Shown here in pieces: positions 4,501 through 50,922 of a stretch of 64,000 bases of DNA. The notes beneath the pieces are model-generated. The model was not told where the DNA came from. It was given only the letters and a program-made list of their open reading frames with translations, and did no database searches. The stretch is taken from the NCBI RefSeq assembly GCF_029633865.1, contig NC_079223.1, forward strand, positions 35,505,134 to 35,569,133. The letters are read 5' to 3'. This DNA is from Lampris incognitus (lineage: Eukaryota > Chordata > Actinopteri > Lampriformes > Lampridae). Position 1 is the first letter of the stretch. Each line of letters begins with the position of its first letter. The position numbers were made by a program, and so were the translations under genes.

Positions 4501-7500
4501 GGAAATTTCAATGGTAAGGAACAGTTTTTGTCATCCACGGCTACACTGACGATCAACGTGATAGACGAACAGGACACTCCACCGTCTTTTATCGGTACGC
4601 CATACTTCGGCTACGTCTATGAAGTGTCTGCACCGGTGAGTATGTTTACATCTTTCAGTCACATCATCATTCACTTTCTATCTGAAATTAAAAGTTTATA
4701 CTGTGCGGCTTGGTCGGGCATCCCTACAGACACAATTGACCTTTCACAAAGTCCCGCCCCCCTTAGTTACTGTTGCTATGCCCGTCAAGCATTTCAGAAC
4801 TATCCAGGAAGTAGCCGGAAAACACCAAAACATGAAGGAAGAAATCAGCGCATTGTGTGGGTAAAAGTAACTGTAATAATACGTTAGCTGTATTAGCTAT
4901 CAATAATAGCTAGTAGCAAGCTTAGCTTGGAGCAGACAGGTATTTTTGGTGATTTTGGATGGATTAAGCTGGCCATGGGGTCTGCTATACTGTGAAATCT
5001 ATTGCCGACATTGCGCTTCTTGCATTCTGTGTTTCGGGATGGGAAAGAAAATTACACTCCCTCCAAACTTTTCAGATATCTAGTATCCGATTTGCAGATC
5101 CCATAGGCACACCGTTTCAGCATTTTGTTGTGTGTTTGAAAGCTTGATGGACCGTTGCTAAGGTAGGATTGGACAAGCACCATTATGGGGCTATACTTTG
5201 CGAAAGGTCAATTGTCCATGTCTGTGGGTGGAAAGCTGGATGTGGGTATGTGTCCTGGTCGCTGCACTAGCACCTCCTCTGGCCGGTCAGGGCGCCTGTT
5301 CAGGGGGGAGGGTGAACTGGGGGGGAATAGTGTGATCCTCCCACACGCTACTTCCCCCTGGTGAAACTCCTCACCGTCAGGTGAAAAGAAGCAGCTGGCA
5401 ACTCCACATGTATCGGAGGAGGCATGTGGTAGTCTGCAGCCCTCCCTGGATCGGCAGAGGGGGTGGAGCAATGACTGGGATGGCTCAGAAGAGTGGAGTA
5501 ATTGGTCAAGTACAATGTACATTGCATGAATTTTTAGTCATTTTGTAAACATCTTTTTAAAGTTATTCTCAAAACCCATGAGAGGACTTTTCATACGTTT
5601 TTCTTTTTGCCACTGACTGTAGAGTGAGAGTTACTGTATGGAAACGATTCAGGTCAGATTCACTTCCTGGATGAGCGGGCTTATATAAAATTCAGTTCAT
5701 AGTTTCATAGTATTTAATTGGATGGAGGCGGCAGATCGTTGCATGCCTCCTGGCTGATGTGAGTTCTTCAGCTGCCAAGCGGCTTTGAATGAGCGGATCC
5801 ACACAAATGTCTTGTTAAATTTCAGCGGGGCATTGCAGTGCAAATGACAAGATCTGATTAAGAGCACAGTGTGATGTTGCATGTGTGATAAGAGTCTTAC
5901 CGTGATTACAGTGATGGATCCTTTGTTATATGCATGCAATGTAAGCAGAAACATGTCTTGGCTTGCATGAGGACACAAAGTAAGAGTGGAAACAAGAGAC
6001 ATGTTGATTGGTTTGTAAAATGTCCAATACAGTATGTGCAGGGCAAAAATTAACGTGGCCGTCTGTGTAGCATAGCGGTCTATTCTGTTGCCTACCAACA
6101 CGGGGATCACCGGTTCGAATCCCCGTGTTACCTCTGGCTTGGTCGGGCGTCCCTACAGACACAATTGGCTGTGTCTATAGGTGGGAAGCTGGATGTAGGT
6201 ATGTGTCCTGGTTGCTGCACTAGCGTCTCCTCTGGTTGGTCGGGGCACCTTTTCAGGGGGGAGGGGGAACTGGGGGAATAGCGTGATCCTCCCATGTGCT
6301 TATGTCCCCATGGTGAAACCCCTCACTGTCAGGTGAAAAGAAGCAGCTGGTGACTCCACATGTATTGGAGGAGGCACGTGGTAGTCTGCAGCCCTCCCCG
6401 GGTCGGCAGAGGGGGTGGAGCAGCAACTGGGACGGCTCGGGAGAATGGGATAATTGGCTGGATACAATTGGGGAGGAAAAAAAAAACTTTTCTTAGACAG
6501 CTCTTATTTCTGAGGAATGCTGCTATTGTAACATCGCCATAGCTTTTCTTGAATATCTGAAAGACATTTTATCGATTACATATATTTCATCATAGCTCCT
6601 ATATTATGTTATGTCATGATCAACATTATGTGTCTACAGCTAATCATCAATTCTGCATTGTGTTGGTTTGTTCAATAACAAAAAAACTTTCTGGTATTTC
6701 CCCCATTCCAAGGGATCTGAAATATACACTGTTTTGGCCAAAGACGGGGATGTGGGAAGCCCAAATCCAATCGTTTACTCATTTGACAGCGGTAAGCACT
6801 ACATCGTCCCTGCAGACTTCACAAAAGACATATTTTAACCATTGGCTAATTGCACTAACTATATCAGTTCATAGTTGCAGTATATTATGTTTACATATAT
6901 GTAATACAGATCTGTCAGAGATAAAGTGAGGGATGAAGTGTAAAGTTCAACAGACGTTTGTTGTGTAGAGTGAAGGTTTGATGGGAGTGTTTATCATTAT
7001 GTTTGCTACTTGTCTTTCCAGGAGATGATGGGGTTTTTAGCATTAATAAGACCAGCGGCTGTATCATGCTGCTGGTTTACCCGATGTATCTGAAGAGAGA
7101 GATATTCAACATTAAAGTCAGGGTAAGATGCACCCCACGCAACCAGTTCTGTTACGAGGTGCTAGAGCAAAAAGGCGACCACCACAGATTTACCAATACG
7201 TTATTTATATAAAGTATTCTTAATTTTTTTTTTAATTGCCCAGCACATAATTGCTTTTTTTTTACAGCTGTCTATTTCGCACCTTTCATCCTGGCTCCAT
7301 GTTATCCATCTACCACGCACAATTTTTGCTATCCCAAAAAGTTGACACCTCATGTTGTGCATGGGAAATGCCCAATTAACACACACACATAGGACTGCAT
7401 AACTGAATAATTTCTATTTTGCCCAGAAAATACCGAATCTTGAGAGTTTGTGAACTGTGAAGTGACTGAGCTAATTATCAACCCATGTGTCCAGGCATCA

Positions 7501-7927
7501 GAAGTAAACCCAGACAACAAGCTCGCAGACTACGGGGTAACCACAGTTGTGATTCGAGTGGTTGATCTGAACAACAATCCCCCCACTTTCTATGGAGAGA
7601 AGGGCCAACAGACCATCTTTGAATTGACCATGTATGAACATCCGCCCGAAGGAGAGATACTCAGGGGTCTGAAGATTACTGTCAATGACTCTGATCAGGT
7701 GAAGTAACTCTTATTAATCTAACATACAGTATTCTCCTTACTTTATCCCAATCTGACATTTTTGTATACAAGATGTCAACTCTCAACATAGTGATACACA
7801 AGTTATATTGCTGCATTTGATGCTGTACCTCACTTACCCAAAAGACAATAACAGTAGGGATTGTCATGAAGTAATGCTATTTAAACTATATCATATTGTA
7901 CTATGTTAAATTTCATATTTAACATGC

Positions 7928-7992
<65 letters not shown>

Positions 7993-7993
7993 A

Positions 7994-8060
<67 letters not shown>

Positions 8061-11000
8061 GAGAGAGAGAGAGAGAGAGAAATAGATATAGATATATAGA
8101 CGTAGATATAGATGATAGTTATATATAGATATAAACAGTTTGGTGATATTTGATGATAGTTCTTATCTAATGAGGAACTGAGTTCATCAACGTTCTGCAC
8201 AATATTATAATGTGGTCAAATGAGCAGGCTCAGTGTCTGGCTTGCTCTCTGTGATATGATATTAAAGCCAAGGCCATTATCATAATAATTCCCTTCTGAA
8301 ATTACATAAAATTTAAAGCAAGCCAACCCAAATTAAGAGGTGCCTGTTAACATACCATTTGCATTGTTATGCAAGTCTCTCTGTAATTCCAGATCCTGCT
8401 CCTAACAGCTGATGTTCACCTCAAGCATAACCTCTGATAATACTGTTATAACATCAGCCCTTTCTTTCTCCATACTGTATTAACATTAAATATTATCTTC
8501 CATCAGGAATAATACTACTGGGACAGCTAGGCTATTGATTTTTGTCAATTTGATAATAAGAGACAATGTTTGCTGTCAGAAGATACAGGGCTTCCCATTG
8601 ATTGAATGGAAAATTCTAGAGGAATTATTTGTGTGACATTGGTTTGCCTTGGCAACATTACAGATGTAGCTCAAATAAGATCATGCATGGATGTCATGAG
8701 TGGACTGTGATCTGCAGTGAGCTGAAAAAGAAATCAGCATGTAAGATTTATCTCGATTTTAATACAAATATCTTAAGCATTGCTGTACGTTGTGTGCTTG
8801 CAGGGCGCAAATGCTAAATTCAATCTGAAACTAATTGGACCCGGGCGGATGCTGCGCGTCGTCCCTCAGACTGTTCTCAATGAAGCCCAAGTTACAATCC
8901 TAGTGGAGGACTCTGCTGCTATGGACTATGAAAAATATCAAGTCCTCACATACAAGGTTAGCCCATATCACGTTCTCAAATTTTGTCATGTATGTGAAAG
9001 AAAGTCATGAAAGTTGATTACAAAGGGATTTAAAATGTGTAAAATAGGCTCTTTTTCATTGGGCTACCACTTGCCAGATGATGTCGATATCTTACAGAGT
9101 GGTACAGGTAGTGTCTGACCAACACGCGGCATGTTTTTGCCCCTTCTTCCCGTTTCTTTCTTTCCTATAGCTTCTTGCAGTCGAAATCGATACGCCGGAG
9201 AGATTCAGTGCCACGGCAGACATTGTCATCCGTCTCCTGGACACCAATGACAACGCCCCAAAGTTCTCCTCTGACTACTACATAGCTAGGATTCCTGAAA
9301 ACTCACCTGGTGGCTCCAACGTTGTGTCAGTGACGGTGAGTGCTGATCCAGGCTAAAAATACGTGCCCTCATGAGTCTACGTCATTCATTCTGGACTGAA
9401 GAGGAATGCTGATTTCAACAAAACGCTGAAGAGAGAGAGCCACTAATTCCCTAAATGTAGACTTTTGGGCAGTTGGGATAATATGTGAAAACATGTAGAT
9501 AAAAGCTAGGGGAGGTAAGCTGCCAGATGGCTATCACTTTCATTTCGTTGTGTAACACCAAATTCCCTGATTTTTTTTTTCATCCTAATACTTAGCAGCA
9601 CATGCAGCTGCAGCACAAAAATATGCACAGAAACATCATGTGTGACTGACATGCCTGTCTGATTTTCTCCATTCAATTTGAGTTTCTTTTTCGAGCAATT
9701 TTCAGTTTCCATCTACCATATGGGCAGTATCTATCCTCCATGGCCAAAAATATAAATGATGTATGACAAGAAATATATATGTTTTACTTGGTTCCTTTGG
9801 ACCCTTTGCATGATAGAAACATTAGTGATGACGGAAAAGCGATTTCTAAATCTGCTTATGTTGATTATGTTATGTCGCTGAGTTGCTTAACATCGATTCA
9901 AACTGCTTGGTTACATTCAGCGAATGGTGAAACGTTTGTCCTTGTCTGTGGTTCATCAGCCCTGCGGAGGCTGGGGGCAACGGCAGGCTCACTAATAAAT
10001 CCTGCCCTTGCATAAACGCCACAGAGGCTCATCACTGTGATCCCAGGCAATTTCAATCAGATAAAAGAACAGCCAGCCAGTGACCTTGGACACAGAGAGA
10101 CGGCAAACATGGCATTCCTGCAATGAGACAGACAGATTAGCTGATAACACGATGATGTTCCTATGACATCAAGAGACGTCCCTTTTATAGCTGATTCCCG
10201 TAACATCATGTACCAAGCCACAACAGATTGATTCTGGGGAATTGGACTGTACATATCATGTATATTCACTATACATATTCTCCCATTCATGTGTTGTCCT
10301 TTTTTGTGTTTGTTGTTGTAATGGTTTATGGGGCCGCTTGTTTTTCTCTCTTTCTTTTTTGCACTGGAACCGAGCTACCATGCTATACTAAATCAATAAC
10401 CACCAACATTGTTGCATGGCAATGATAAAGTATCTATTTTCACTTAACTGATTCCACAGTGACCATCCACCCCCCCCCCCAGGTATTCATTCAGGTCAAC
10501 AAAGGAAATGAAAATGAGCCAAAGAATTTCTCAGGAATAGAGAGATTATTGTTGAGGCATTGCACCCTTATCAGACAATACATGGTAGCACACAGAGTAA
10601 AAAGAGAATAGCAGAAGAGGAGAGCAAGAAGATGGCTTTTACAGTAAGGTCAATAACCCCAGACTGAAGCCTCCATGATGTGAGTACATTGCAAGCGTCG
10701 TAGTTTGCTGACCAGCATATTGTTCTTGAACCTCAGTTGAGACAATATTACGTTCATTTGGCTCAGTATGTTCCCATAGATTTCCATACTGTACCAGTTA
10801 CTATGTAACCTGTCCTATCAACTATACTACCTATGCAATATGTACAAGGCAGGCTGCCATGATGTTAACATATAACATATTTATTCATCTTTTGTCTGTT
10901 TGTCTACAGGCAGCAGATCCAGATTCGGGGACTTGGGGAGAAGTGAAATATTCCATCTATGGTTCAGGGGCTGACTTGTGAGTATTTAAGCATGACTTAG

Positions 11001-11261
11001 ATAAGTCTGCAGAAAGTGGCCCCATTGTTGGCCTGTTCTTTGTTTACACTTATACCACAAAGACTAGTGACATTTACATGTCTAGTTTTTTATCTCTCTT
11101 TCTCCTTGTCTGTCTTTCATGTTTCTCTGTCTCTCTGTCATTGCTGCATTCGCTCTTTCCGTGCATGTGTCCACATGTGGTGATTATGTGAGCCTAAACT
11201 CAGTGTTGGTGCAGAAAACCAGCTGATAAGGTTCCAGCAGACCAGAATAAAACCCTTACAA

Positions 11262-11323
<62 letters not shown>

Positions 11324-13927
11324 TGCTTATGCAACATTATTAGCGGCTGATTCTCTGACTATTTATCAAGAGGGGCAAAAAAAAAGACCACACTATTCAC
11401 CAAAAATGTCTGAGACACAATGACCTTGGTAAAATATTAACATTTGCAAACACAAAATTGTTATATGTTTTCCTTAATTAATGCATGATATCTTTTTTTC
11501 CAGAGTTTTAGGTATTTTTAGGTATTTGTTGGTGAAGTAATTTACTTGAAATGTCTTTTCTGATGGCTGTTTTAAAATATGTGATGCCAATGAAATATTT
11601 CAAACTGAAAGGAATATCTGCAGGTCACTTAATACGAATGCATTAATTCCTAGACCTGTAGTTGGCTTTTATGCTACCTTGAAATCTATGACTAAAGAGG
11701 GCCAGTAGGTGCACTGCAGCAGATCCTCGTCATATTTCTACATGGTCCTGCATATTTCTTAAATTCGTCCATGCACCCTAGATGCTCAGGAGGATTTCCT
11801 GGTATTTTCTTTTAAAGATTTTTTTTATTAGATTTCCAAATTTAACTTCAGAAATAAAAGGCTCAGGTCCCAGTCTTTTCTTTGGCTGATCACAGTAAAT
11901 TGCCTTCATACCACAAAACAACCTCAAACCTGTCAGCATGCCCTTTTTTCATAATCCCTTCAACTAGAGACCCCATGGTACCTGCATTTAGTTTTGGTTT
12001 AGCACCCAATGCACCTTACCACTGAAATAATGAAGCAGGTGATAATATTTCCTCAGACATTCCTACCTGACGTCCACTAAAGGTACTAAAAATCCAAAAT
12101 GCCTAAATTTGGACAAACTGCAAGCTCTTATAAGAGTGCAATTTGAACAGTGCTGAATAACATTGGGAAGCTGGCATAATGTAATATTCATCTCATCTCA
12201 TCTCATCATCAGCCACTTCTCCACAGTCGGGTCGTGGTGGCAGCAAGCTAAGTAGGGCACTCTAGATGTCCCTTTCCCCAGCAACACCCTCCAGCTCCTC
12301 CTGGGGGATCCCAAGGTGTTCCCAGGCCAGATTGGACATGTAGTCCCTCCAGTGAGTTCTGGGTCTTCCACAAAGTCTCCTACCAGTTGGCGTGCCTGGA
12401 AAACCTCCAAAGGAAGGCACCCTGGAGGAATCCTAATCAGATGCCCGACCACCTCAACTGGTTCCTTTCGACGCGAAGGAACAGTGGCTCTACTCTGAGC
12501 TCCCTCCGGATGTCCGGGCTCCTCACCCTATCTCTAAAGCTGGGCCCAAACACCCGACGGAGGAAACTCATTTCAGCTTGCTTGTATCAGTGATCTCACC
12601 CTTTCAATAACTACCCAAAGATCATGACCATAGGTCAGGGCTGAAATGAAGATTGACTGGTAAATTGAGAGCTTTGCCTTCTGGCTCAGCTCCCTCTTCA
12701 CCACAACAGTCCGGTACAACGTCCACATGACTATTGATGCTGGACCAATCCACCTGTCAATCTCTCGCTCTATCCTACCCTCACTCGTGAACAAGACGCC
12801 AACATACGTGAACTCCTTCACTTGAGGCAACAACTCATCCCCAACCCGGAGGGGGCCAATCCGCTATTTTCCGGTAGAGAACCATAGCCTCAGACTTGGA
12901 TGTGTTGACTCTAATCCCGGCCATTTCACATTCAGCTGCAAACCATTCCGGTGTGCCCTGGAGGTTGCGTTCTGATGAAGCCAACAAAACCCCATCATCT
13001 GCAAAGAACAGAGATGAAATTCTGAGGTTCCCAAAATGGACATACTCCTCACCTTGGCTGCACCTTGAGATCCTGTCCATGAATATCACAAACAGAATCG
13101 GAGGCAAGGGACAACCTTGGCGAAGTCCAACACCCACCGAAAGCGTATTTGACTTTGTGCCGAGAATACAAACACAGCTCTCACTTTGGTTATACAAGGA
13201 CCGGATGACTTGTAGCAACTGTCCCGGTACCCCATACTCCCGCAGTACCCATCACAGAGTGCCCCAGGATCCACAGTCATAAGCCTTTTCCAACTCCACA
13301 AAACACATGTAGACTGGCTGGTCAAACTCCCATGCCCCCCTCAGCACTTCCACAAGCGTAAAGAGTTGGTTCGTTTTTCCACTGCCAGGACAGAATCCGC
13401 ATTGTTCCCCCTGGATCCGAGGTTCGACTATTGGTTGGAGCCTCCTTTCCAGCACCCTAGAGTAGACTTTCCCAGGGAGGCTGAGCAGTGTGATGCCCCG
13501 ATAATTGGAGCACACCCTCCAGTGCTCCAATATAATGTAATATTCCCAGACACATAGTAGTCGGTCGGCATGTGTTAAATCTTTTTTCTTGCAGCTTTCC
13601 CGGCCACCCTTTTGGCATTGAGAGCAGTAACATGTAATGTCATTTGTTTGTTTTTTGGGGTGTTTTCTGTGTTTATTTTGTGGGAGAATTTTTAGAGCTA
13701 TGTGGGCAAATCATGAGTTTTGCAGCAATGATTTAAGAGAAAACATGGAACATTAAATGGCTTCTAGGAAAGGGATTTGTAATTTAGGCACAGGAGAGGG
13801 ACTTGGAATACTTTCAGCTTAGGGAATACTTTTTGGTCAAAAACATATATTATGTAACGGTGTCACTTGCCCTTAAATCCAACCTTTTTTTTTTTTTATC
13901 AAGAGCTGTGACACTATATTTCCTGTT

Positions 13928-13982
<55 letters not shown>

Positions 13983-16900
13983 TGTGTGTGGGTGGGTGTG
14001 CGTAATATACTATGTTAAAAACGACCGTATGTATGTGATAACTTCCATCTTACCGAGGTAACCTCTGATGGAACGTTACTTTGCCATGCTGCACTCCTGA
14101 GCTCTGCCTGCTGTCCCTCCATCTGCAAATCCTCTAATGGGATTGGAGGAAGAAATAGACCGCTCTTTGCTTCCATTTACCTTGCAAAGTCACAGAAGAT
14201 AACTGAGCAAGACACACTGAAATATCCACTCCTATCCCTGTTCTGTATATTGAATTCCAGCAGTAGCATAGGTCTCATTCTAGGAATCATCGGTCTACCT
14301 ACAGAATTCATACAATAATGAACCCAGTTGGTTTCTGTCAGGAAAAATCAAGCTGTACTTGATTAATTCGTTGTGTTTATTCCTTCATTTTGCAAAAAAA
14401 AAAAAAAAAAGCAAGCTTTGCCCATCCGGTTAGTGCTGCCACAGTCATTGGCTATAGCAGGAGTGACTGATAAGTATTGTGATCTTGCTCTCACATACAA
14501 CGTGCATAACATGACGTGTGTCAAACAAAATTGGCAATAAAAAGCTGAAAAACAGAAACAAATTTAGACCACTTGGGTTGAATTTAGGGGAATAAATCTG
14601 TGACAAGTTTCAAGCGCTCTGTTTAAGAGGGACACACTGGAAACCACTGTAATTTGCAGTTTTATTTCGTAACATATTATTTATTGTTATTTAGGAGACT
14701 CACTCACTGCAGACGTCCTCCAGATAGACAGTTTGTTGTCTCTATTCCTTTTTAAGGCTCATGGTATTAGTTATATAGTTAAGACATCAGTAGGTATAGG
14801 TAATGTAAGTAATGTAATGCGTCCCTTCTGCCCACTACCGATAATGTTCCCTTGAGCATGGTGCTTAACCTCCGGCTGCTGAATGGACTAGAAAGCAGGA
14901 TATATTAAAATTTCAATCTTAAAAATTTACTTGCATACACGTGTCCAATTTGATATTTTTACCACTGACACGCAAATTATGAAAACTTTTGCTCCTGCTT
15001 TTTTTTCTTTTTCTTTTTTTCCCCCTTTTTCTCCCCAATTGTACCCATCGAATTACCCCACTCTTCCGAGCCGTCCCGGTCACTGCTCCACCCCCTCTGT
15101 CGATCCGGGAGGGCTACAAACTACCACGTGCCTCCTCCGATACATGTGGAGTCGCCAGCCGCTTTTTTTCCCCTGACAGTGAGGAGTTTCGCCAGGGGTA
15201 CGTAGCGCGTGGGAGGATCACGCTATTCCCCCAGTTCCCCCTCCTCCCTGAATAGGCGCCCCGACCGACCAGAGGAGGCGCTAGTGCAGCGACCAGGACA
15301 CATACCCACATCCGGCTTACCACCCGCAGACACGTCCAGCTGTGTCTGTAGGGACGCCCGACCAAGCCGGAGGTAACACGGGAATTTGAACCGGCGATCC
15401 CCATGTTGGTAGGCAATGAAATAGACCGCTATGCTACCCAGAGATCCTGCTCTTTTTAATGATTACAGTCAAGGAGGGCAATACGGCAGAAATGACATGA
15501 CACAGAGCATCGTATGTTTTACATTGAAACAATGGAATGTGGAAGAAGAAGGGAGGTGATTTTCAGGGAGAAGTTAAGTTGTGGCTAGCAAGCAGACATG
15601 GCAGAACAAATTCATGAAAGACCTTTAACTAACAGATACTGCAACATCATTAGCTAGAAATCCAATTTCAGTCATGTCTTTGTTTTTTTTTTTTGTCTTC
15701 AAAATAGCACTGCAGGCTTTTTCTTTTGAAGTCCTAAAGCAACTCTGCAATCCATTACAGATCACCTTGGTTGTTAGTAAACTAAACAAAAATTAAGATC
15801 TTTTTGGGATTATAACCTTAAGTTGTTGGTTTTGTCACTACCTGCATCCTTCTTCTGTATTTGCCTGCTTTGGTGGTGATATAAAATATTACGCACCATA
15901 TCACTTCTGGGGAAGTCCAACTCAACAGTAACCATTAAAATATGCAATTACAAAAGCGTTATTGTGGATTCTCTTTTGTACTCAATGCACAAGGGAAATA
16001 AAGCATCAAAAAGGGCATTATCTGCATGTAAATCTTCAGGATTGTAGCTTTAAACATTGCATATTTCAAATTTTGTCTCTGTGATGTGACATCTAAATGA
16101 CGTTTCTCCAATTTCAGGTTCCTGATACAGCCTACTTCTGGGATCATATACACCCAGCCATGGGCGAGTCTGGATGCAGAGATGAGATCCAAGTTCAACT
16201 TCTATGTAAAGGCAGAGGATGCCGAGGGAAAATACAGCCTGGCTGAGGTCTTTGTGACTGTCTTGGACCTGAACGACCATCCGCCCGAGTTCAGTGAAAA
16301 CTTTCTGGAGAAGACCATGGTCATTGGAGCACCAGTCAAAATAGAGGTGTGTTCTTATCACGAATACAGTAGTCATCATGACCATGTGCTGTGAACTTAA
16401 GGCCAGGTAATGCCTCAAAAAATGCCTCAGTCTTTCTTGTCTTTCTGAAACTCATTCTGTAGGCCATAGATGATGATGCAGAGGAACCCAACAATGTCAT
16501 TGAGTACTCCATCATGAAAGCTGACCCAGATAACATCTTTGACATTAACGCTGACACTGGGGAGATTGTGCTCAAGTCCTACATTAAGTCACTAGATATT
16601 GTCCAGAATATCACAAAGCAAAAGGATTGCACCTGGTCACTGGTGGTCCAGGCTCGAGACCGGGGCCAACCCTCCTTCAGCACCACTGCAGTTGTCAAGA
16701 TTGACATCACTGAAGCGGTAAGTTGGGAAAGAGAGTAGCTGTATATCAAATGAAACCCATGTGACCTTTTCCTAAAAAAAAAAAGAAGAAAAAACTGCCA
16801 CTCAGGGTGTCCGGGTAGCATAGCGGTCTATTCCATTGCCTACCAACACAGGGCTCGCCGGTTCGAATCCCTATGTTACCTCCGGCTTGGTCGGGCATCC

Positions 16901-19138
16901 CTACAGACACAATTGGCTGTGTCTGTGGGTGGGAAGCTGGATGTGGGTGTGTGTCCTGGTTGCTGCACTAGCGCCTCCTCTGGTTGGTCGGGTCGCTTAT
17001 TCGGGGGGGGAGGGGGAACTGGGGGGAATAGCGTGGTCCTCCCACGCACTACGTCCCCCTGGCGAAACTCCACACTGTCAGGTGAAAAGCGGCTGGCGAC
17101 TCCACATGTGGCATGTGGTAGTCTGCAGCCCTACCCGGATTGGCAGAGGGGGTGGAGCAGCGACCGGAGCAGCTCGGAAGCGTGGGATAATTGGCCAAGT
17201 ACAACTGGAAGGGGGGGAAAAGCCAATTAAAAAAAAAAACCACTCAAATCTACCTGGACCCGATGTCTAGTGGGAGTTAGAAACATACTTTACACTTAAT
17301 CCCTATAAATTTCCAAATTTTGAAGGTTTAAATATCATTTTTATCAGTAATTTGCAATGCAACTCCCAGAACACATTCCTCAAATTGGCTTTTGAACATT
17401 GAAATGTACTCTACTAGTTACAACCCTAAATATGGATGTGATTGTTAGCATGGCTGTTGTTGTAAACACAGGCCAAGATATCAGATAGGTAGTTGTGATG
17501 ACAGCCATTAATCAGTTAAACCTCATTCACATACTATTGTTGTGTTTTCAGATCAAATCCAGATTTTTCTCATACCTCTTGGGCCTAAGGAAACGTCCAG
17601 GGGCTGTGTTTGGGATTTTTTTGATCCTTGTCATCCTCGCCATTTTATTGACAATCATCATTTCAACACTTATATACTGGAGCTCTGTGAAAAAGTCACG
17701 CGTCACATCTCAGGGCAAGATCAGAAAGATTACACGGAGGCCTGTGCCATAAATGAAGCTTGCCTTGAGATCATCCCGCAGCACTGTTTTTTTTTTTTTT
17801 TCCCCCACTCTGCGATACTCAGAATTGAATGCTTAGTGCATAATCTAATAAGTTGTTGTACCAGGATAGGGTTGTGTCTGTAAAAGAGTACAGAAGCACA
17901 ATATGTACCACCCTCTTCATTTTGACTTATCGGTTTTCTCCATGATTTGATTCACCTATCCCAAGGTGTCACTCGGTAGGATCGATCAAAACACAGTTTT
18001 AAAAAATGCGTTATGCTCCGTAAGCTAGACAGGAGTTCATACTGTTTCGTTCTCAAATGCAACGCTGAATGGCCTCAGCTATGGGTGCTCCAATTAACCC
18101 TTCTGATCTTGTCTTGACAAAATGAGAGAAAGCCAACTGCATAAACGTTATCATTTTGTCAGCGATCATTTTGAATTTATGATAGTCATCATTTCAAGTT
18201 TGTCCCATTGACAAGAGCACCCAGAAGGAAAACATTTTTATTCTTGAACCAATATCATTATCATCATCATCATCATCATCATCATCATGGATGCCACACT
18301 GTCCAGAGCATGCTGTAATACAGCCAGTAACTCACATGTGCATTTAACTGGGGCTTTGTAGGAGCGATGTAGGAGCAATATACTGCCGCCTCATACAGTA
18401 TATTGTCGTAGGTCAAATGATAATGCATGCAGTACAATAAATGAGAGATAATAGAAAGGAGTTCGTAGGCCAAATGATAATGCATGCAGTACAATTAATA
18501 GAAAGGCATTATTACTATGTCTGGCAGTCTATGATTTCAGTCCCATAGACGTGACTTCTCCTTGTGCTCTTTTACAGACCCAACTCAGGGGGGGGCCTTT
18601 GGCATCATTTTTAATGCAGGGTAGAAACAACCCTTTGCAAGTCCTAGGCATGCTCGCTGGCATCATTATTCTCACAGTCATAGTGACAGTCGTCATCTCC
18701 ACCGCAATATTCATGCGCAACAAAAAGTCCAACCGGATCCTGCCCAATCGGCGTATTAAGAGGAGGCGACGTAGCAGGCAGACCTGGGCCTTCAAAAACC
18801 CCTTCAAGAAACCGGAGAACCCTGGAGAGAAGTTCCGTGTCGTGGAGCAAGAGCAAGAGCAAGAGCAAGAGCCGGAGGTCGTCGTTGAGAACATCAACTA
18901 TAACAACAATGTAGTCAGACAGTGGCCCCTGGCTCCACTGCCTTGTGCCCCCTCTCTGCCCCCACCACCTCCCTCCTATATAGCAGGGGAGAGACAGTGG
19001 ATGGTGCCCACCATATCAGCTGGAGTGGCAGCCAAGCCTCTAAGGAAGGTAGGGAGAAGCAAAGAGGACATTGTTAACAGAGCACTGGTTTCAGAGCTCA
19101 AAATGATACTGGAGCAGAAGAGGATGCAGAACCAATAG
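1514..19138 (+). CDS. cdhr1a: Cadherin-related family member 1 (photoreceptor cadherin), 5'-incomplete
   Basis: Multi-exon gene whose spliced product matches vertebrate CDHR1 (protocadherin-21/prCAD), a cadherin at the base of photoreceptor outer-segment discs. Exons inferred from GT/AG sites and continuous phase: 1514-1659, 2292-2342, 2450-2539, 2842-2928, 3605-3721, 4492-4635, 6713-6791, 7022-7122, 7495-7698, 8804-8956, 9171-9335, 10910-10977, 16118-16346, 16463-16717, then 18578-19138 (long tail) or 17552-17752 (alternative end). About 815 residues are encoded here; signal peptide and start of the first cadherin repeat lie left of the window. Calcium-binding cadherin motifs recur: DANDE (2450 exon), [31 protein letters not shown]. 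The last exon has a hydrophobic segment ([20 protein letters not shown]), then a basic stop-transfer run and an E/Q- and proline-rich tail. The 5.1-kb intron before 16118 holds a LINE and a SINE. The 'a' suffix is inferred from neighbours, not shown. Confidence 0.93.
1776..2205 (+). mobile_element. tRNA-derived SINE, family A, copy 1 (cdhr1 intron)
   Basis: Begins with a tRNA-like head (TGGCGTGGCGGTCTATTACG as box A region; GGTTCGAATCC as box B), followed by the family body (CCACATGTATCGGAGGAGGC) and a poly-A/G-rich end. Nine copies or pieces of this family occur in the window. Confidence 0.85.
4228..4425 (+). repeat. Fish SINE/LINE tail fragment
   Basis: Contains the common teleost repeat words ATTGTCCCTAGGTGTGAATG, a (TG)n run, GATGGACTGGCGGCCTGTCC, GCTGGGATAGGCTCCAGC and a (GAAT)n tail. 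No coding frame. Shorter pieces of the same tail lie at about 128-275 and 37125-37165. The AT-rich stretch 4040-4215 in the same intron has only simple (ATAA)/(AAT)n sequence. Confidence 0.7.
4705..4738 (+). mobile_element. tRNA-derived SINE, family A, copy 2, left piece
   Basis: Matches the family body just after the tRNA head (CGGCTTGGTCGGGCATCCCT...ACACAATTG), then stops abruptly where another element begins. The match resumes at 5209. Confidence 0.8.
4739..5208 (-). mobile_element. THAP-type DNA transposon relic inserted in a SINE
   Basis: A 470-bp insert with imperfect terminal inverted repeats (ACCTTTCACAAAGT at the left; reverse complement ACCTTTCGCAAAGT at the right), flanked by CAATTG at 4733-4738 and 5209-5214. 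On the minus strand a frame from the ATG at 5123 begins [13 protein letters not shown] and, after an internal stop, ends near VCSK, reminiscent of the C-x-C...C(S)K(H) layout of THAP zinc fingers found in P-, Kolobok- and ISL2EU-type transposases. It is broken (TAA after 24 codons; final His not visible). The superfamily is not settled. Confidence 0.55.
5209..5520 (+). mobile_element. tRNA-derived SINE, family A, copy 2, right piece
   Basis: Continues the family body from GTCTGTGGGTGG through CCACATGTATCGGAGGAGGC to GTGGAGTAATTGGTCAAGTA. With 4705-4738 it forms one SINE split by the transposon relic. Confidence 0.8.
6057..6482 (+). mobile_element. tRNA-derived SINE, family A, copy 3 (cdhr1 intron)
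   Basis: Nearly full length: head with TAGCATAGCGGTCTATTC and GGTTCGAATCC, the family body, and an end in AATTGGGGAGG plus poly-A, about 230 bp upstream of the exon at 6713. Confidence 0.85.
7925..8130. repeat. Compound microsatellite (ATCT)n-(TG)n-(GA)n
   Basis: Sixteen or so ATCT units, then about 29 TG units, then short GA and GATATA runs. It lies in the cdhr1 intron between the exons ending 7698 and starting 8804; the rest of that intron shows nothing recognisable. Confidence 0.95.
11263..11321. repeat. (CA)n microsatellite
   Basis: About 29 uninterrupted CA units in the large cdhr1 intron (10978-16117). A shorter (TG)n run lies at 13929-13978. Confidence 0.95.
12190..13531 (-). mobile_element. 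5'-truncated RTE/Rex3-like LINE with reverse transcriptase relic
   Basis: Minus-strand frames encode, in order, [20 protein letters not shown] and a degraded [13 protein letters not shown] (13530-13252), [20 protein letters not shown] and the catalytic FADD box (13218-12835), [16 protein letters not shown] (12833-12573) and [20 protein letters not shown] (12452-12198). This is the C-terminal half of a non-LTR reverse transcriptase of the type common in fish (Rex3/RTE). Frameshifts and stops separate the pieces, so it is dead. The 3' end is a short GATGA repeat. A perfect 14-bp duplication ATAATGTAATATTC flanks it (12176-12189 and 13532-13545). Confidence 0.88.
15010..15447 (-). mobile_element. 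tRNA-derived SINE, family A, copy 4 (cdhr1 intron)
   Basis: Reverse-orientation copy: poly-T/C at the left, CACATGTATCGGAGGAGG complement in the middle, tRNA-like head at the right end. TCCTGCTTTTTT-like sequence on both sides is a probable target duplication. Confidence 0.85.
16806..17228 (+). mobile_element. tRNA-derived SINE, family A, copy 5 (cdhr1 intron)
   Basis: Head GGTAGCATAGCGGTCTATTC and GGTTCGAATCC, then the body and an A-rich tail. CCACTCA occurs immediately before (16798-16804) and after the tail (17240-17246), consistent with a target duplication. It sits between the last shared cdhr1 exon and the alternative terminal exon. Confidence 0.85.
17552..17752 (+). CDS. cdhr1a: Alternative terminal exon of cdhr1 (second TM segment, short basic tail)
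   Basis: A TTTTCAG acceptor at 17551 opens a phase-0 frame that joins exactly to the exon ending at 16717 and runs to TAA at 17750-17752. It encodes 66 residues: a short juxtamembrane part, a strong hydrophobic segment ([20 protein letters not shown]), then a short basic tail ending RRPVP. It aligns with the start of the downstream terminal exon (both have S-F/Y-L, a TM ending in IST, KKS, and an arginine-rich stretch), suggesting exon duplication. Using it would give a cadherin with the same ectodomain but about 30 cytoplasmic residues in place of about 140. Transcript support cannot be judged from DNA; a decayed duplicate is possible, though the frame, acceptor and TM are intact. Confidence 0.65.
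   Translation: MKSRFFSYLLGLRKRPGAVFGIFLILVILAILLTIIISTLIYWSSVKKSRVTSQGKIRKITRRPVP
18406..18521. repeat. 58-bp tandem duplication between the two alternative cdhr1 ends
   Basis: TCGTAGGYCAAATGATAATG and CATGCAGTACAAT recur with a 58-bp period. The first unit carries AATAAA (18436-18441); the second has AATTAA. The first could serve as a poly(A) signal for the 17552-17752 exon. An ATC/TCA triplet run lies at 18255-18288. Confidence 0.6.
18578..19138 (+). CDS. cdhr1a: Canonical terminal exon of cdhr1 (TM and long cytoplasmic tail)
   Basis: Acceptor TTTTACAG ends at 18577 and the exon continues phase 0 from 16717. It encodes 186 residues to TAG at 19136-19138: a juxtamembrane stretch ([11 protein letters not shown]), one TM helix, [11 protein letters not shown], an arginine-rich run, repeated EQ dipeptides (from a GAGCAA repeat near 18847-18870), a proline-rich segment (PPPPPSY) and a C-terminal [12 protein letters not shown]. 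The TM-proximal part closely resembles vertebrate CDHR1. The stop is followed within 10 bp by a (TG)n microsatellite. Confidence 0.9.
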   Translation, partial: TQLRGGPLASFLMQGRNNPLQVLGMLAGIIILTVIVTVVISTAIFMRNKKSNRILPNRRIKRRRRSRQTWAFKNPFKKPENPGEKFRVVEQEQEQEQEPEVVVENINYNNNVVRQWPLAPLPCAPSLPPPPPSYIAGERQWMVPTISAGVAAKPLRKVGRSKEDIVNRALVSELKMILEQKRMQNQ

Positions 19139-19771: not shown

Positions 19772-19777
19772 AATAAA
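19772..19777 (+). terminator. Candidate cdhr1 poly(A) signal
   Basis: First AATAAA downstream of the cdhr1 stop, 634 bp beyond it. Function is inferred from position only. Confidence 0.4.
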
Positions 19778-23439: not shown

Positions 23440-26187
23440 TTAATAGAGTTCGGCTGTGAGTCTGCAGTGATCGCCCTTCCCTTTGAGAATTCGGTCATCA
23501 GACCTCCGCCTCACCTTCCTCTCCTGACTGGAGTCTTTATTAACCAGGCCCTCGTCGCTGGCCGCCTGCAGGCTATCAAAGTTGCCTTGCCTCTCCCTCT
23601 CCGATGAATCATCATCTCTCTGACGACGCTTCCAGGACTCCATGATACCGTCCAAGCAGGTAAACTTGGTGTCGGTGGTGCAGGCATACATGCCAGCAGG
23701 CACAGCCAGCACCATGGCGAGAACTATCACCACAATGTGAATCAACTTCTCCCGTTGTTCCTTCTCTGTGACGTCACTTCCTGTCACAAAGACAATGCAC
23801 TGTCCGGGACGTGGTGTCTGGTTCTTGAGGGTGACGCAAATGTCATATTTGGTGGCAGGCATTAAATCAGACACAGAGTAAGAGTTGATCCCCGGGCCAA
23901 TGTAGATCGTCTCCCTCTTGTTGGAGCCCCAGCGGCCAAAATGGATGGTGAACCAGGTTTCGTACGGGTGGTCTAAGACAGCGTACCACTCGATTGTGAT
24001 GCCCCGTATTGTCTGCTTGGCAATGCGGATGTCGATGTAGACATTTTCCTCAGCCGTGGCAACTGGGGCTGAGAAACCAGGGGAGAGCGCTGACTGGGAG
24101 CCGTCCGGAGAATGGACGTCCAGGAGGATGTTGACAGATGAGTTGCCGATGAAATTGACGGCAGTGCAGGTGTAAACGCCCTGGTCAGCAACGTGAAGGG
24201 AGGGTATCACCAAGTGGGAACTGATGGTGTCCTCATCCACGCTCTCCTGAAACTCTGGGACAGACACAAGGGGGAAATTCACTGCTTTCAGAGGCGGCAT
24301 ATGTACCCTTACAAGAAGGTTGCTGACATAAGTACAGCTCATCTTGGAAAAGTCTCTCAATTATGTTTGCTAGCTTCGAACGTTTTTCTACAGAAAAATA
24401 TTAATGAATTTAATCTAACACTTATGTTACATGTATATTAAATAATACAAGTCTTAAAAGTTGAGCGAGGCATAGCAAAACCTTGCCATCGGTAAATAGA
24501 AAACACCACAATCAGGCCACCAGCTCCCCAACTAGAACACATAGAAAGAAATATCAATTATCATTACAATGTGTTAACATCATATTGCTTTCACTGGTGT
24601 GTCCCAAAACACGGGACTGCGAAATGGTTTTGAAGGGCTGACCACATGCAGTCAGAACTGTCATGGCCCATGGTTACAGGGAAAGATTAGGCCGAATGAC
24701 GAGGAGGCTCATTTAATTACAAAGTAGGCCAACATGTCGACATTAGGTATGCCACAGTGCTCCACAATCTCCCAACGTCTTAATCAACATCAGTGATGTA
24801 CTGGCAGATTAAGAGAATCGGTGGTGATTATAACGTGGTAGGCCCAGGCCAATATCCAGATTACTCCTCCTTGCTTAATTAGTAGGCCTAGTTGTTTAGA
24901 GCGGGAAGGGTTTCTCAGTGTACGTTTAAGTATCTAATTTACAGCAAAACGTTTCTCGTGGAAAGCGTTTATACGTTACGTATGTTGACACCAGTGAACT
25001 CTTACCATGAAATCCTCTGATTATCTTCAGACCATATGTCCACCACACCGCCGGGTTCGGCCTGGCCTTCGCGAGGCAGCTGAGAGTCGTATTTACTCCC
25101 TGCGGCATGCTGATATTGGCGGACGGCGTGGTCACAATGGGCTTGATGCAGGCTTTCAGCTCCACTTCGTGGAAGAACTTGCCTGCCCTAAAGTCCGGCC
25201 CGGAGCAAGTCAAGTAGGAGTTCATCAGAATGATGGGCGGGCTGATGGATTTGATAAATTCCACAAAGCCCTTCAGGCGGCAGTCGCAAAGCCAGGCGTT
25301 GTCGTGAAGGGCCAGCATGACGTTGGGCGCAAAACCCGTCACCTCCCTCTCGCCCATGCCCTGTGTCTTCTGATGGAGAGGCCAGTTTAGGAAGACGTCC
25401 TTTGAAATTACCGTGAGTTGATTGAAGGATACATCTAAGTACGTGAGAACTGGCAGAAACTTTAACGCATGCTCCGGTACGACGTCCAGCTGGTTGTGTT
25501 TCAGGTCCAGGATCTTGAGGGCCGGGGTGTCCTCGAACGCTGTCCATGGCACCGACCTCAGTTTGTTCCCTTGCAGGCGGAGCTCGGTTAAATTCCCCAA
25601 ACCTTCGAAACCCTTCGAATTGATCACGGTGATCTCGTTGAAGTTCAACCACAGGTTTTCTAAGGCCGGCACGTTTGAGAACGCTGCCCGAGGTATTTCG
25701 GTGAAGTGAGATTTTTCAATGCGTATTTTGTTCATATCATCTGGAATGTTCGCTGGTATGGCCCCAAACGCGCTCTCCTCCATGCATATAAGTGACCTGA
25801 GATCGAAAGGAACAATGCTTCAATGCTTCTGCCATGATTAAATAATAGCCTTGTTAAATGTAACAAAATAAAAGTGACTAACAATAGCTGGTGAGACATA
25901 AATTAGGGCCACTGCAAGTTGGTTAATTATTGAGGGTACGAGCATGCAGTAAATAATGTCAAGCGTGGCTTTCAATATGTAGAACCCATTCACAGAAACG
26001 TGAGAACGATACCTACTGACGTCAGCAGCAACCTCGATACCTCTGCCTATGCAGTACGTGGCTGAGGCACGTCTTACCTTCCATTACGGTCCGTCACACA
26101 GCTGCATCTACTGAAGCATTGTGAATTAGCTTGATGTGCTTGAATGATCAAAAAAAATATCGCTGATACGCCACAAAATATGTCCAT
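23440..26187 (-). CDS. lrit2: Leucine-rich repeat, Ig-like and transmembrane domain protein 2
   Basis: Three coding exons on the minus strand: 26187-26078, 25796-25006 and 24254-23440, with consistent phase and GT/AG junctions, giving 571 aa (close to mammalian LRIT2). The start ATG at 26187 is chosen because it begins a signal peptide ([14 protein letters not shown], residues 4-17); an upstream in-frame Met would bury it. Order: N-terminal cysteine cap (C24..C41), about five LRRs (58-180; [12 protein letters not shown] type), C-terminal cap [12 protein letters not shown], an Ig domain split by intron 2 (LSC ... GVYTCTAVN, Cys330), an FN3-like domain (about 365-455), TM helix (about 471-492, [19 protein letters not shown]), and a ~79-residue charged tail. 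LRIT2 is a retina-enriched membrane protein of poorly known role. Family assignment is firm; gene order next to lrit1 and cdhr1 supports it. Confidence 0.95.
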
Positions 26188-26277
26188 AGTCCGATAAAAA
26201 CGAAAAAAAAAACCCTGTGAGCTACATTCGTGCTCGAGGCATACCAACCGCGGCGGACCAGAGAAGCCTATTAAGTC

Positions 26278-26283
26278 TAATCC
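26278..26283. promoter_or_regulatory. OTX/CRX-type core motif upstream of lrit2
   Basis: TAATCC lies about 90 bp upstream of the lrit2 start codon. CRX/OTX factors drive photoreceptor genes through this core; a single 6-mer is weak evidence. Confidence 0.25.
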
Positions 26284-26594
26284 CTGACGCACTGCGTGAA
26301 GCACAAGTGGCACCTGATTCCCAGGAAAGCTGGCATGCTTAAGACTGGACAGTGTCAGTAGTTCTTAACCGATGCCTGTATAACTCCTATTGGCTATCTG
26401 ACCCGAAACCAGTATTTAAACAGTTGGCTAACTGGAACATGAAGACAACGGAAACATCCCAATACAAATTCAACCGATAACAGCAAACCATTAACTAACT
26501 AAAGCCAACGACTACAATGTACTGCGTTAACTCATTGTTCAATCTTGGCTGAATTTATTTACTTGTTTGTTTGTTTGTTTATTATTTATTTATT

Positions 26595-27056
26595 TGCTTT
26601 TTTTGCCCCTTTGTCTCCCCCATTGTACTTGGCCAATTACCCCACTCTTCCGAGCCGTCCCGGTCGCTGCTGCACCCCCTCTGCCGATCCGGGGAGGGCT
26701 GCAGACTACCACATGCCTTCTCTGATACATGTGGAGTCGCCAGCCGCTTCTTTTCACCTGACAGTGAGGAGTTTCGCCGGGAGGACGTAGCGCGTGGGAG
26801 GATCACGCTATCCCCGCCAGTCCCCCCCCTCCTCCTCCCCCTCCTCCTCCTCCCGCCCGAACAGGCGCCCCGACCGACCAGAGGAGACGCTAGTGCAGCG
26901 GCCAGGACACATACGTACCCACATCCGGCTTCCCACCCGCAGACACGGCCAATTGTGTCTGTAGAGACGTCCGACCAAGCCGGAGGTAACACGGGGATTC
27001 GGACCGGCGATCCCCGTGTTGGTAGATAACGGAATAGACGCTACCCGGACGCCCTC
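26595..27056 (-). mobile_element. tRNA-derived SINE, family A, copy 6
   Basis: Reverse copy upstream of lrit2; the body has an extra CCTCCTCCTCC expansion near 26828-26855. GGCTGAATTTAT (26547-26558) and GGCTGAGTTTAT (27058-27069) are probable target duplications that include a (GTTT)n/(ATTT)n stretch on the left. Confidence 0.85.
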
Positions 27057-27168
27057 AGGCTGAGTTTATAGTCTTGCACAGCTCAGCACCTTATGTACGG
27101 TGAAGTGAAACTGGAGATAAGAACACTACTGCTAGTGCTACAACAGGATGAATATATATATATAAAAG

Positions 27169-27174
27169 TTTATT
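27169..27174 (-). terminator. Candidate lrit1 poly(A) signal
   Basis: TTTATT on the plus strand, about 1,045 bp beyond the lrit1 stop. The interval 27180-28218 has no other feature and is the likely 3' UTR; it includes a G/T-rich repetitive stretch at 28040-28180. Confidence 0.35.
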
Positions 27175-28218
27175 TCGTTTCATTCAAATAGTATGGGGGG
27201 GGGTGAATAGATTTACATTGACAGGGGTAATGATGCAATCTAAGTGACATAAAACAGGTACATAGTAAGACATAATTGAAGTGCTATGTGTCTCATTGCT
27301 GGGACTAGTAATGGTTTAACATTTTGCATCATTTCTGCCATATTTACAATGTGTCATAGTTCAGTCCTTACTGTACTTCTCTCCAGCTCCAGCTCTTTCT
27401 TTTTTTTAACTTTTCGTCAGCGTATTGAACCATGCCTATGTGTATATCTTCTCTGAGAACATATGACAGATATATACAGAGGCATAGACTTAACGATATA
27501 TGTAAGTGTACATCATCAAGTAGATTATTTACAAATCATACACATACATATGCGGTATAAACAGTGGAAAACACGTCCTTGAGTTCCCTTTAGAGCAGAT
27601 CAGTTTGTGGGGGTTTCTATCCTGGGGTGTGCTAGTCATCTGAGATGAGATTTATGATCATAAGTATTAATGTTCCTTCAGCCTTCGACATCATTCTGTT
27701 ACAGCTTCTGTGATGTGAACATTCTCTGGGGCATAAAACGGATGAAATCTATCTCAGTGGATACATTCTGTTTGTGTCACTGTATGAATACATGTATGCC
27801 ACAATAGTAAGAATGAGTCCCAGCAATTCATATTCACTCTATCCGCAAGAAACATAAAATTTTTTGAAATAGCTCAAAAAAATGTGAATAAAAATGACAT
27901 AAAAATCCCCTAAACCGATATTTCCATGATGGTGCAGCGTGCAAAAGTCCTTTGATAGAAGTTGGCCCGCTGTGGCGGCGGTGTGGGTGGTGTGATCCAG
28001 CGAGGGGGGACGGATGGAGAGGAATCCCATGGCTGGGGTGTGTGTGAGCGGGTTGCGGGGGGGCTGACTTCAGGATGTCGATGGGGGTGAGGGTAAGGGT
28101 AGTGATGGGGGTAGGGGCGGGGGTGTGAGTGCACATGAGCGTTAGAGTTGTGGCGAGGAAGTGTATGAGGGTGAGTGTGTGAGACATGGCGTGGAGGAGC
28201 TGGAGCCGGAGCGTGACG

Positions 28219-31200
28219 TCAGCAGAAGTACTCGTTGGGCTGTCCCTCGATCTTAGCTGTGGCCTCGGAGTCCAGGCTGGAGCGGGCCGACAGCAGTCGG
28301 TTGGACTCCTCTGGGTTCAGTCTGGTCAGATACTCACCCTCCAGCCCTTTGGCTTTTGTGCCGGGCGACAGCGTTTCAAAGGTCACGTACGAGTCCTGTA
28401 TGTCCTTGGACTTCTTTCCCCAGTACTTCTGGATGCGCCTCTTCAGCGCACCACAGCACACAATGACAGTGAGCGGCACCGCGATGACGCAGGCCACTGT
28501 GATCACGATAACGTTAATTAGCTTTTGGGTACCGGTGGCACTGGCTGCTTCGTCTGTAGAAAATATGACACACTGCTCCTTCTTAGGGATCAGCCCCCTT
28601 ACACACACACAGGCGATGTACTTGGTCCTGGGCACCAGCCCCTCAATAGTTACGCGGTTCTGCCCCGCCCCAACATTGATCTTCCTCATGTCCCGCTCCC
28701 CAAACACAGCATATAGCACGCTAAATGCTGTTGTGTTCTTAGCCTTTGGAGCTCTCCAATTCAGAGAGATGGTATTGTCTGTGTCACCCACCACCTTTAC
28801 AGAGCGGACCACCCTGTCCGGGTCCTGCTGAAGGGATGAGGTGTTGGCCGCCAGGTTGCTGAGATTGGTCTTCTCCAGATCCAGCAGCCCGTCTGGGCCT
28901 GAGGAGGTGCCAGGCCCAGGCGTGGCTCGGTCAGCTAGGCTGTAACTGGCCATCCCAGCACCAGGCCCGGGGCCGGGTGGTGGGCCTGGCTCCAGTGCAG
29001 GCGGGGCTGGAGGCGTGGAGGTTGGTACCACATATCTGGCCACCAGTTTTTCCTGATAGGCAGCTTTGCCCATTTGGTTGGGTTTCTTGGCTTTGGGTTT
29101 CTTATCAGTGCTAGTTTGGTTTCCCTCTGGTTTCGGTGTGTTGGAGACCATGAGAGAGATGACGGCCTCGGCACTTCCCGCGTAGTTAGTGGCTTTGCAA
29201 ACGTATTTCCCTGAATCACGATATGACACAGCCGGGACGCTTAGGATGGACCAGGTGATTCCCTCCTTCGAATTCTCCAGCTGGACTGTGAGGAGGACAG
29301 AGACAATGAACATTACGACTATAAATGAGCAGTAAAATGTGAAAACTATAAAGCATGACACGGGGAAACTCATGAAGGTATAACAAGTGAGGGCTGGACC
29401 GATTTTGTGGTGGTATTGTAATAATGACAGTATTTTAGAAATATCTCAGTTAAGATACCCTCTGGTGACTTAGCCCAACGTCAAAAATTACACACGCAAA
29501 TTAAAAGGGCTGTAGCTGAACTCTTCTGAATATATGCATAACCATGGCCTCCCCAGAAAGGTTTGACCCTGAACTGCCAGATTTAACTTGCCCATTACTG
29601 AAATTGAGTTGCTGAAGGTCAAAACACAGTGTAAATTGAATTCTATCATCGCCTAAAAGAGAACTCGTTATTTGCATAAAAATAACTTCCTTTGGTTTTG
29701 TATCTTGAGCCCATGACTCAACTGAGCTATTACCATAAGTCTCTTCACGTTTGATGATATAATACCAAAACGTGAGCGTTTGGCGTTGTTTTTACTATGG
29801 ATATGCATCTCCAAACTACCCAACTGAAGTATCCAATGGGCCACTTTTTGTCCCAAATGATGTTAACGGGCCTTTTGGAGTGTGCAAGACAACATATTTT
29901 TGTAACTTTCATCTAAATGGTTCTTTACAGGGGCCTGTGCATGAAGGATAAAAAAAAGTGTGTTGCTGTCAATGTATTGACTCATGCAAGTATGCAAATT
30001 AAAAAAAAAACACTGAAAATGAGCAACGTTGCACAACTCGTTCTGATCACAGCTGCTCAAACATCTGCACAAATCCAACGCAAGCTTCTGTTTAATTAGT
30101 GTGCATTTTGCGTAATGGCGCAGCGCAACGGCAGTTCTCTTACACAAAGCACAACCACCATAACGAAAGCGGGCGGAGGGAGAAAGAGGGTGAGGTATAG
30201 GGGGGGTTGGGTGACTCACGCTCCAGAAGGTCATGCTGGCTCACCTGACCCATTGATGGCTCTCCCGTCAGCCCTGCGCCATGCCAGGTCGGGGATGGGG
30301 ACTCCGATGGTGCCGCAGCGCAGCAGCACGTTGTTACCGACGGCGCTGCGGACCCGCGCCACCGCCGTGTGGATGCGGGGCAGCTGGCAGCTCCGCAGCT
30401 CGGCATCGCTGAACAGGACCCCCGACAAGCTCTCCGGGGCCGAGCAACGGAGCCGCGTGTCGATGAAGGCTACTGAGAGGGTCGGGGACTTCTGAAACTG
30501 GACCAGGTCGAACAGGCGACAGTCACACACCCAAGGGTTATCGTGAAGACCTGTACAAATAATAATAAAAAAAGGGCGGGGGGGGGGGGTTACCATAGAA
30601 GAGAGGTGACAGGCCAGTAATTTGGACTAGCGGAGAAAGAACGGTTCCCGCACTGTGCGTAAATTGATGGATAAGCCTAGATGGGTGGTGTTATGACGTT
30701 AGTTATGTGAAAATGCTATAAAACGATTAGTGGGCTGTTTGGTTCATGAACTATGTCATGAAGTCAGCAACGATGATGACGATGATGATGATGATGATGA
30801 TATGAGAGGAGTTAACTAAAAGATGCATTTTACGGGGGGGGGGCGGAGGGGTCAAGGAAAATTAGCATTGGGTGTCATTTCAAGGTGGTTCTCCCAAGTG
30901 CCTCGTTAAGTGGTTATCGTAAATCTGTTACAACTTGTTGACTTTTTTATGTTTTGTGTAACCTTTATATAACCAGGCAAGTCATTAAGAACAGTTTTTC
31001 CATTTGCAATGACAGCCTGGCAAGAGGCAGAGCTTCTTGGGGAAAGGAGAAAAACGGTGAAAGATACACACTTGAAAAAAAAACAGACATACCAACAGTC
31101 AGAGCAAAAGAGATTAAAAAAGAAATCTATGCAGTGGGTGCGTCCATCTTGGAGGGATCCCTTCTCTGATGCTTTTATACTGAAGTTTCTTTTTGTCTGT

Positions 31201-45412: not shown

Positions 45413-50922
<5,510 letters not shown>

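Follow-up and report, generated by a model that had tools for sequence, protein, structure and literature searches.

A tandemly duplicated terminal exon very likely provides cdhr1 of Lampris incognitus with an alternative, nearly tailless membrane anchor

The cdhr1 gene described here has two terminal exons in tandem behind one last ectodomain exon. We consider it very likely that the first of them, referred to below as exon A, genuinely serves cdhr1 as an alternative last exon and that it originated long ago, when the terminal exon was duplicated in tandem. The window, i.e., the whole stretch of 64,000 nucleotides that was analysed, corresponds to C16:35505134-35569133. The genome searched comprises 1.48 billion bases in 537 contigs, and all comparisons were made within this one genome. 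The exons concerned are the following, with a slash marking each exon boundary:

16463..16717, plus strand: last shared ectodomain exon, ending ...KIDITEA in phase 0; donor GCG/gtaagt
17552..17752, plus strand: exon A, predicted alternative terminal exon; acceptor tgtgttttcag/ATC; 66 residues; stop TAA
18578..19138, plus strand: exon B, terminal exon; acceptor ctcttttacag/ACC; 186 residues; stop TAG

Exon A encodes a juxtamembrane stalk, a transmembrane (TM) segment at about residues 18-43 and a basic tail of 23 residues with a net charge of +8. Exon B encodes a stalk, a TM segment at about residues 22-46 and a tail of 140 residues. The maximum hydropathy over 19 residues is 3.43 for exon A and 2.97 for exon B. 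Each exon is in phase 0 and continues the frame of the 14 upstream exons (1514-16717), which have ordinary splice sites and, when joined, form a single open frame of 629 residues. An earlier, sequence-only reading of this DNA had placed the two terminal exons at exactly these boundaries and had described them as phase-0 exons behind one ectodomain exon, each with its own acceptor, TM segment and stop, a description which the joined frame confirms. It had also assigned tails of about 140 residues to the B form and about 30 residues to the A form; the former value stands, while the latter is too high, and the very short cytosolic tail expected for the A form is indeed present, with 23 residues past the TM segment.

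The name cdhr1 is a provisional assignment from the human protein, especially from the sequences ...IDIT(D/E)A and NKKSN(K/R)(V/I)LP, and the tail encoded by exon B is presumably the canonical CDHR1 tail. CDHR1, the photoreceptor cadherin, has six extracellular cadherin repeats. The first, N-terminal cdhr1 exons lie to the left of the window; over the 629 residues inside it, the Pfam Cadherin family matched five stretches (E value 1.6e-63). For human CDHR1, the part of the source available places donor c.2040 after codon 680, in phase 0, and the start of the TM segment at residue 703 (PMC5539332). The fish donor is likewise in phase 0 and the hydrophobic run of exon B begins at residue 22, so that both the donor phase and the distance from donor to TM segment match, which supports the name. 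No CDHR1 chain is present among the 54 solved-structure matches to the ectodomain at an E value of 1e-20 or better. With the TM region of exon B as the query, the best solved-structure match reached an E value of only 0.43, and no Pfam family matched either exon A or exon B. A search of viral_contigs gave no relatives, as 112 stretches fitted a pattern and none was confirmed.

Exons A and B can be aligned without gaps over the juxtamembrane part, the TM segment and the basic run, with 15 identical residues out of 45 in BLASTP (E value 4e-8), and a profile comparison with hhalign extends over 54 columns (E value 2.9e-7, probability 93%). The best ungapped register of A against B is the same in both gene copies found in the genome. 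When the sequences were shuffled 5000 times with the composition of stalk, TM segment and tail each preserved separately, the four single-pair scores of A against B were reached by 0, 0, 0 and 2 shuffles, and the joint score by none. By BLASTP, by hhalign and by the shuffles, the likeness of the pair thus extends beyond composition; the alignment from the juxtamembrane part through the basic run, as proposed in the earlier reading, is borne out, and its proposal of a terminal exon tandem duplication gains support from the same homology. A TM-coding open frame behind an AG is not in itself rare. In the region 33000-63000, 10 of 1699 AGs, falling at about three places, are followed by open frames of 45 codons or more whose 19-residue hydropathy reaches 2.5 or above, and the window alone is therefore only suggestive. 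It is the second gene copy, located on contig C22 and also carrying exon A, that settles the existence of the exon.

The genome search with exon A returned one further match, on C22 and free of stops, after scoring of 6 candidates (tblastn E value 1.3e-16; 51% identity over residues 1-63), and 33 of the 66 columns are identical between exon A of the window and exon A of C22. The last ectodomain exon and exon B likewise each had one further match, at this same C22 locus, with 82% identity over 85 residues and 55% identity over residues 6-184, respectively; 73 and 64 candidates were scored, and the counts of matches may be lower bounds. The C22 copy has the last ectodomain exon (phase-0 end IDITEA), exon A (65 residues, acceptor tgctttcag/ATC, stop TAG) and exon B (184 residues) in the same order and all in phase 0, and its ectodomain exons can be matched to their window counterparts over the full 629 residues. 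In the window as in C22, one donor is followed by two terminal exons of the same phase, each with its own stop, and across both copies the cytosolic tails measure 22-23 residues in the A form and 139-140 in the B form. Both gene copies found in the genome carry exon A, and the loss of frame in relatives that the earlier reading had named as counting against the exon is not seen in the one relative compared, the C22 paralogue of the same genome, where the frame is kept. Since the second copy has kept the same exon pair, the short form of Cdhr1 is probably real.

Over the 54 columns shared by all four exons, 26 are identical between the two A exons and 34 between the two B exons, as compared with 13 to 16 between A and B; the exon duplication is thus older than the gene duplication. 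When the window was compared with 50 kb of C22, with queries giving more than three hits dropped as repeats, four genes were found to be collinear, both their order and their relative orientation being shared: cdhr1 is followed by two LRR genes, one LRR/Ig-like and the second LRR/fn3/Ig-like, and these by a 7TM-like gene. The two LRR genes occupy 23443-32016 on the minus strand and are collinear with C22:27007003-27018293 (one Ig match is below the Pfam cut-off). The 7TM-like gene, at 45725-50916 on the plus strand and collinear with C22, has Pfam 7tm_1 matches below the cut-off in three exons. These neighbours of cdhr1 are putatively LRIT2, LRIT1 and RGR, the genes next to CDHR1 in human. The two blocks look like a whole-genome-duplication pair, and their collinearity indicates that exon A predates an old duplication. 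Two genes, cdhr1a and cdhr1b, are described in zebrafish in the portion of the literature available.

The substitutions between the two A exons indicate that exon A is constrained as protein. The exons differ at 71 of 195 bases, distributed as 24, 13 and 34 differences over the 65 first, second and third codon positions, respectively, giving pS 0.63, pN 0.28 and dN/dS 0.25 (bootstrap 2.5-97.5% range 0.10-0.51, with 1835 of 2000 resamples usable). When the same substitutions were placed at random in exon A, none of 20000 placements kept the observed similarity, and 17017 created a stop. For the exon B pair dN/dS is 0.37. In three of the six ectodomain exons tested it is 0.047-0.067, the other three and the pool being saturated (pooled pS 0.77), so that constraint on exon A is far weaker than on the ectodomain. 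Within exon A, the TM segment and the KKSR stop-transfer run are preserved in both copies; the tail past KKSR shows little conservation, and its last residues are not the same in the two copies (RRPVP and RRVK). Within exon B, the proline-rich stretch CAPSLPPPP is conserved in the C22 copy, whereas the E/Q-rich stretch is not, and the EQ repeat at 18836-18890 is missing there. The conserved pieces of the long B tail are candidate binding sites.

The signals by which the two exons would be spliced and ended, together with nearby elements, are listed below. The 14 upstream acceptors of the window gene supplied a small matrix for scoring acceptors, with which the 105 AGs of the last intron were ranked.

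16807..17235 (approximate), plus strand: SINE-like repeat in the intron before exon A, outside the proposed mechanism
17532..17551, plus strand: exon A acceptor tactattgttgtgttttcag, score 9.6, rank 1 of 105 AGs
17875..17905, plus strand: short non-coding conserved stretch downstream of the A stop, with a counterpart at the corresponding place in C22
18436..18441, plus strand: AATAAA, possible weak poly(A) signal for A transcripts
18558..18577, plus strand: exon B acceptor ctccttgtgctcttttacag, score 8.7, rank 2 of 105 AGs
19772..19777, plus strand: AATAAA, possible poly(A) signal for B transcripts

In the C22 copy, the exon A acceptor ranks third among 132 AGs, not first. The poly(A) signal behind exon A is not conserved, as the only such signal in C22 is an ATTAAA located 33 bases upstream of the B acceptor. 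The stretch behind the A stop has 24 of 28 bases identical between the two copies, a score matched by none of 300 Markov shuffles, and a pattern built from the two copies had no third exact match genome-wide; it may help to choose or end exon A. At 18415-18500, upstream of the B acceptor, there is a local tandem repeat of about 57 bases which contains TGCATG twice and AATAAA once. The Rbfox-type TGCATG thus occurs between A and B at 18424 and 18481, both inside this repeat, and once on C22; a role for it as a control element between the two exons is offered as an idea only. The frames of the SINE-like repeat give more than three matches in the 50 kb of C22, and one copy is present in the C22 intron. 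A retrotransposon fragment (12198-13574, minus strand; Pfam RVT_1, E value 2.9e-12) lies in the intron before the exon at 16118-16346.

Three other explanations of exon A were weighed. It might be a poison exon, included upstream of B or ending transcripts early and thereby only lowering the amount of full-length Cdhr1, with the short protein having no job of its own. The in-frame stop of exon A and the conserved non-coding stretch behind it fit such a role, but a poison exon needs neither constraint at the protein level nor a TM segment and KKSR run kept in both copies, and we regard this explanation as improbable. That exon A is instead an unspliced remnant of the duplication, decaying and still intact-looking in both copies, would agree with its faster evolution relative to the ectodomain and with its variable tail end. 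However, while pS is high, the random placements described above show how readily the same substitutions would have destroyed the protein, and the acceptor and phase of exon A are intact in both copies, which leaves a relic very improbable.

The remaining alternative concerns the origin of the exon, namely that A and B resemble each other by convergence of two hydrophobic anchors and not by exon duplication. TM segments are alike in composition, and only 8 of the 54 columns are identical in all four exons, as convergence would allow; the composition-preserving shuffles, however, fall short of the observed scores, and the best register agrees in both copies, so that very little credence can be given to it. 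An alternative last exon derived from an old terminal-exon duplication is the explanation that we retain for exon A.

If exon A is such an alternative last exon, joining of the donor at 16717 to A would yield a transcript ending behind A, and its product would combine the ectodomain of six cadherin repeats with a different stalk, a different TM helix and a basic tail of 22-23 residues. Skipping of A and use of B would give the long tail of 139-140 residues. The choice would then be a competition between the acceptor of A, together with a poly(A) site behind A, and the acceptor of B. We infer that both exons are used in RNA, and likewise the manner in which A transcripts end. The two forms may differ in cytosolic partners, in turnover or in shedding of the ectodomain, and conceivably, as the earlier reading suggested, in anchoring or cleavage at the disc base.

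With respect to shedding, CDHR1 is cleaved and its cadherin domains are released, and the accessible portion of one report proposes that cleavage takes place in rods and not in cones (PMC13090022). Because exon A replaces both stalk and tail, this rod-specific cleavage could depend on exon choice. We can speculate about a switch between two kinds of Cdhr1, one sheddable and signalling through its tail, the other firmly anchored and nearly without a tail, with different use in rods and cones or in retina and another tissue. We hold such a switch to be unlikely; if it were true, it would supply a molecular basis for the proposal of rod-only cleavage. Two narrower ideas were rejected. A Siah1 degron, P[ARTE]xVxP, is reported at residue 857 of zebrafish Cdhr1a in the available part of PMC7719784, and the short isoform might have been one that escapes it; this motif, and even VxP, is absent from both A and B in both copies. 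The idea of a furin-like site in the stalk encoded by exon A (RKRP, SKRP) was likewise set aside, as neither the P4 residue nor the proline that comes next agrees with the consensus.

CDHR1 is a cone-rod dystrophy gene, and one of its human transcripts, NM_001171971, has what we take to be an alternate 3' end. Several coding transcripts of human CDHR1 are annotated, including this one, according to the part of PMC9368980 available, and a table based on Ensembl, in the portion of PMC7917623 available, gives 7 splice variants, 4 of them coding. No report of an alternative last exon of CDHR1 came up in our literature search, whose coverage mostly left out subscription journals, and the text of PMC4642573 contains none of the terms isoform, transcript, alternative, exon 16, exon 17 and cytoplasmic. 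Zebrafish Cdhr1 is described, in the accessible portion of the source, as having a single transmembrane domain and a single cytoplasmic domain, and the cloned cDNA carried a C-terminal tag. If the short form exists, it would be missed by C-terminal antibodies, by C-terminal tags and by rescue constructs built on the long form. Moreover, the two anchors would offer a ready test of whether shedding at the base of the outer segment is governed by stalk and tail.

Among known systems, the retinal dystrophy gene RPGR likewise has an alternative terminal exon at its 3' end, RPGR-ORF15, from which the retina-specific form is made (accessible part of PMC7917623), and alternative last exons therefore matter in retinal disease genes. 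Unlike exon A of cdhr1, RPGR-ORF15 is neither a duplicated exon nor a membrane anchor. Exons 17.1/17.2 of Dscam, as far as the source at hand describes them, are also alternative juxtamembrane and TM exons of an adhesion protein; they differ from the cdhr1 pair in being internal exons of a member of the immunoglobulin superfamily. The Dscam forms share their tail, and in Protocadherin-10 the TM exon is common to both isoforms, with no duplicated anchor known. Long and short isoforms of Protocadherin-10 are described in the part of PMC9040349 available. The closest known case is the pair of exons 18a/18b of arthropod N-Cadherin, Drosophila included, which, according to the accessible portion of PMC2655722, are likewise ancient duplicated TM-region exons in a cadherin, used one at a time. 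As in cdhr1, each exon resembles its orthologue more than it resembles the alternative exon (PMC2655722). Exons 18a and 18b are, however, internal and mutually exclusive, and they lead into the same cytoplasmic domain, whereas the cdhr1 pair is terminal and the whole tail changes; no targeting difference between the 18a and 18b forms was found in fly neurons, again according to the portion available (PMC2655722). Anchor-exon duplication of the kind known from arthropod N-Cadherin is, as the cdhr1 pair shows, also found in a vertebrate cadherin, there as a terminal exon.
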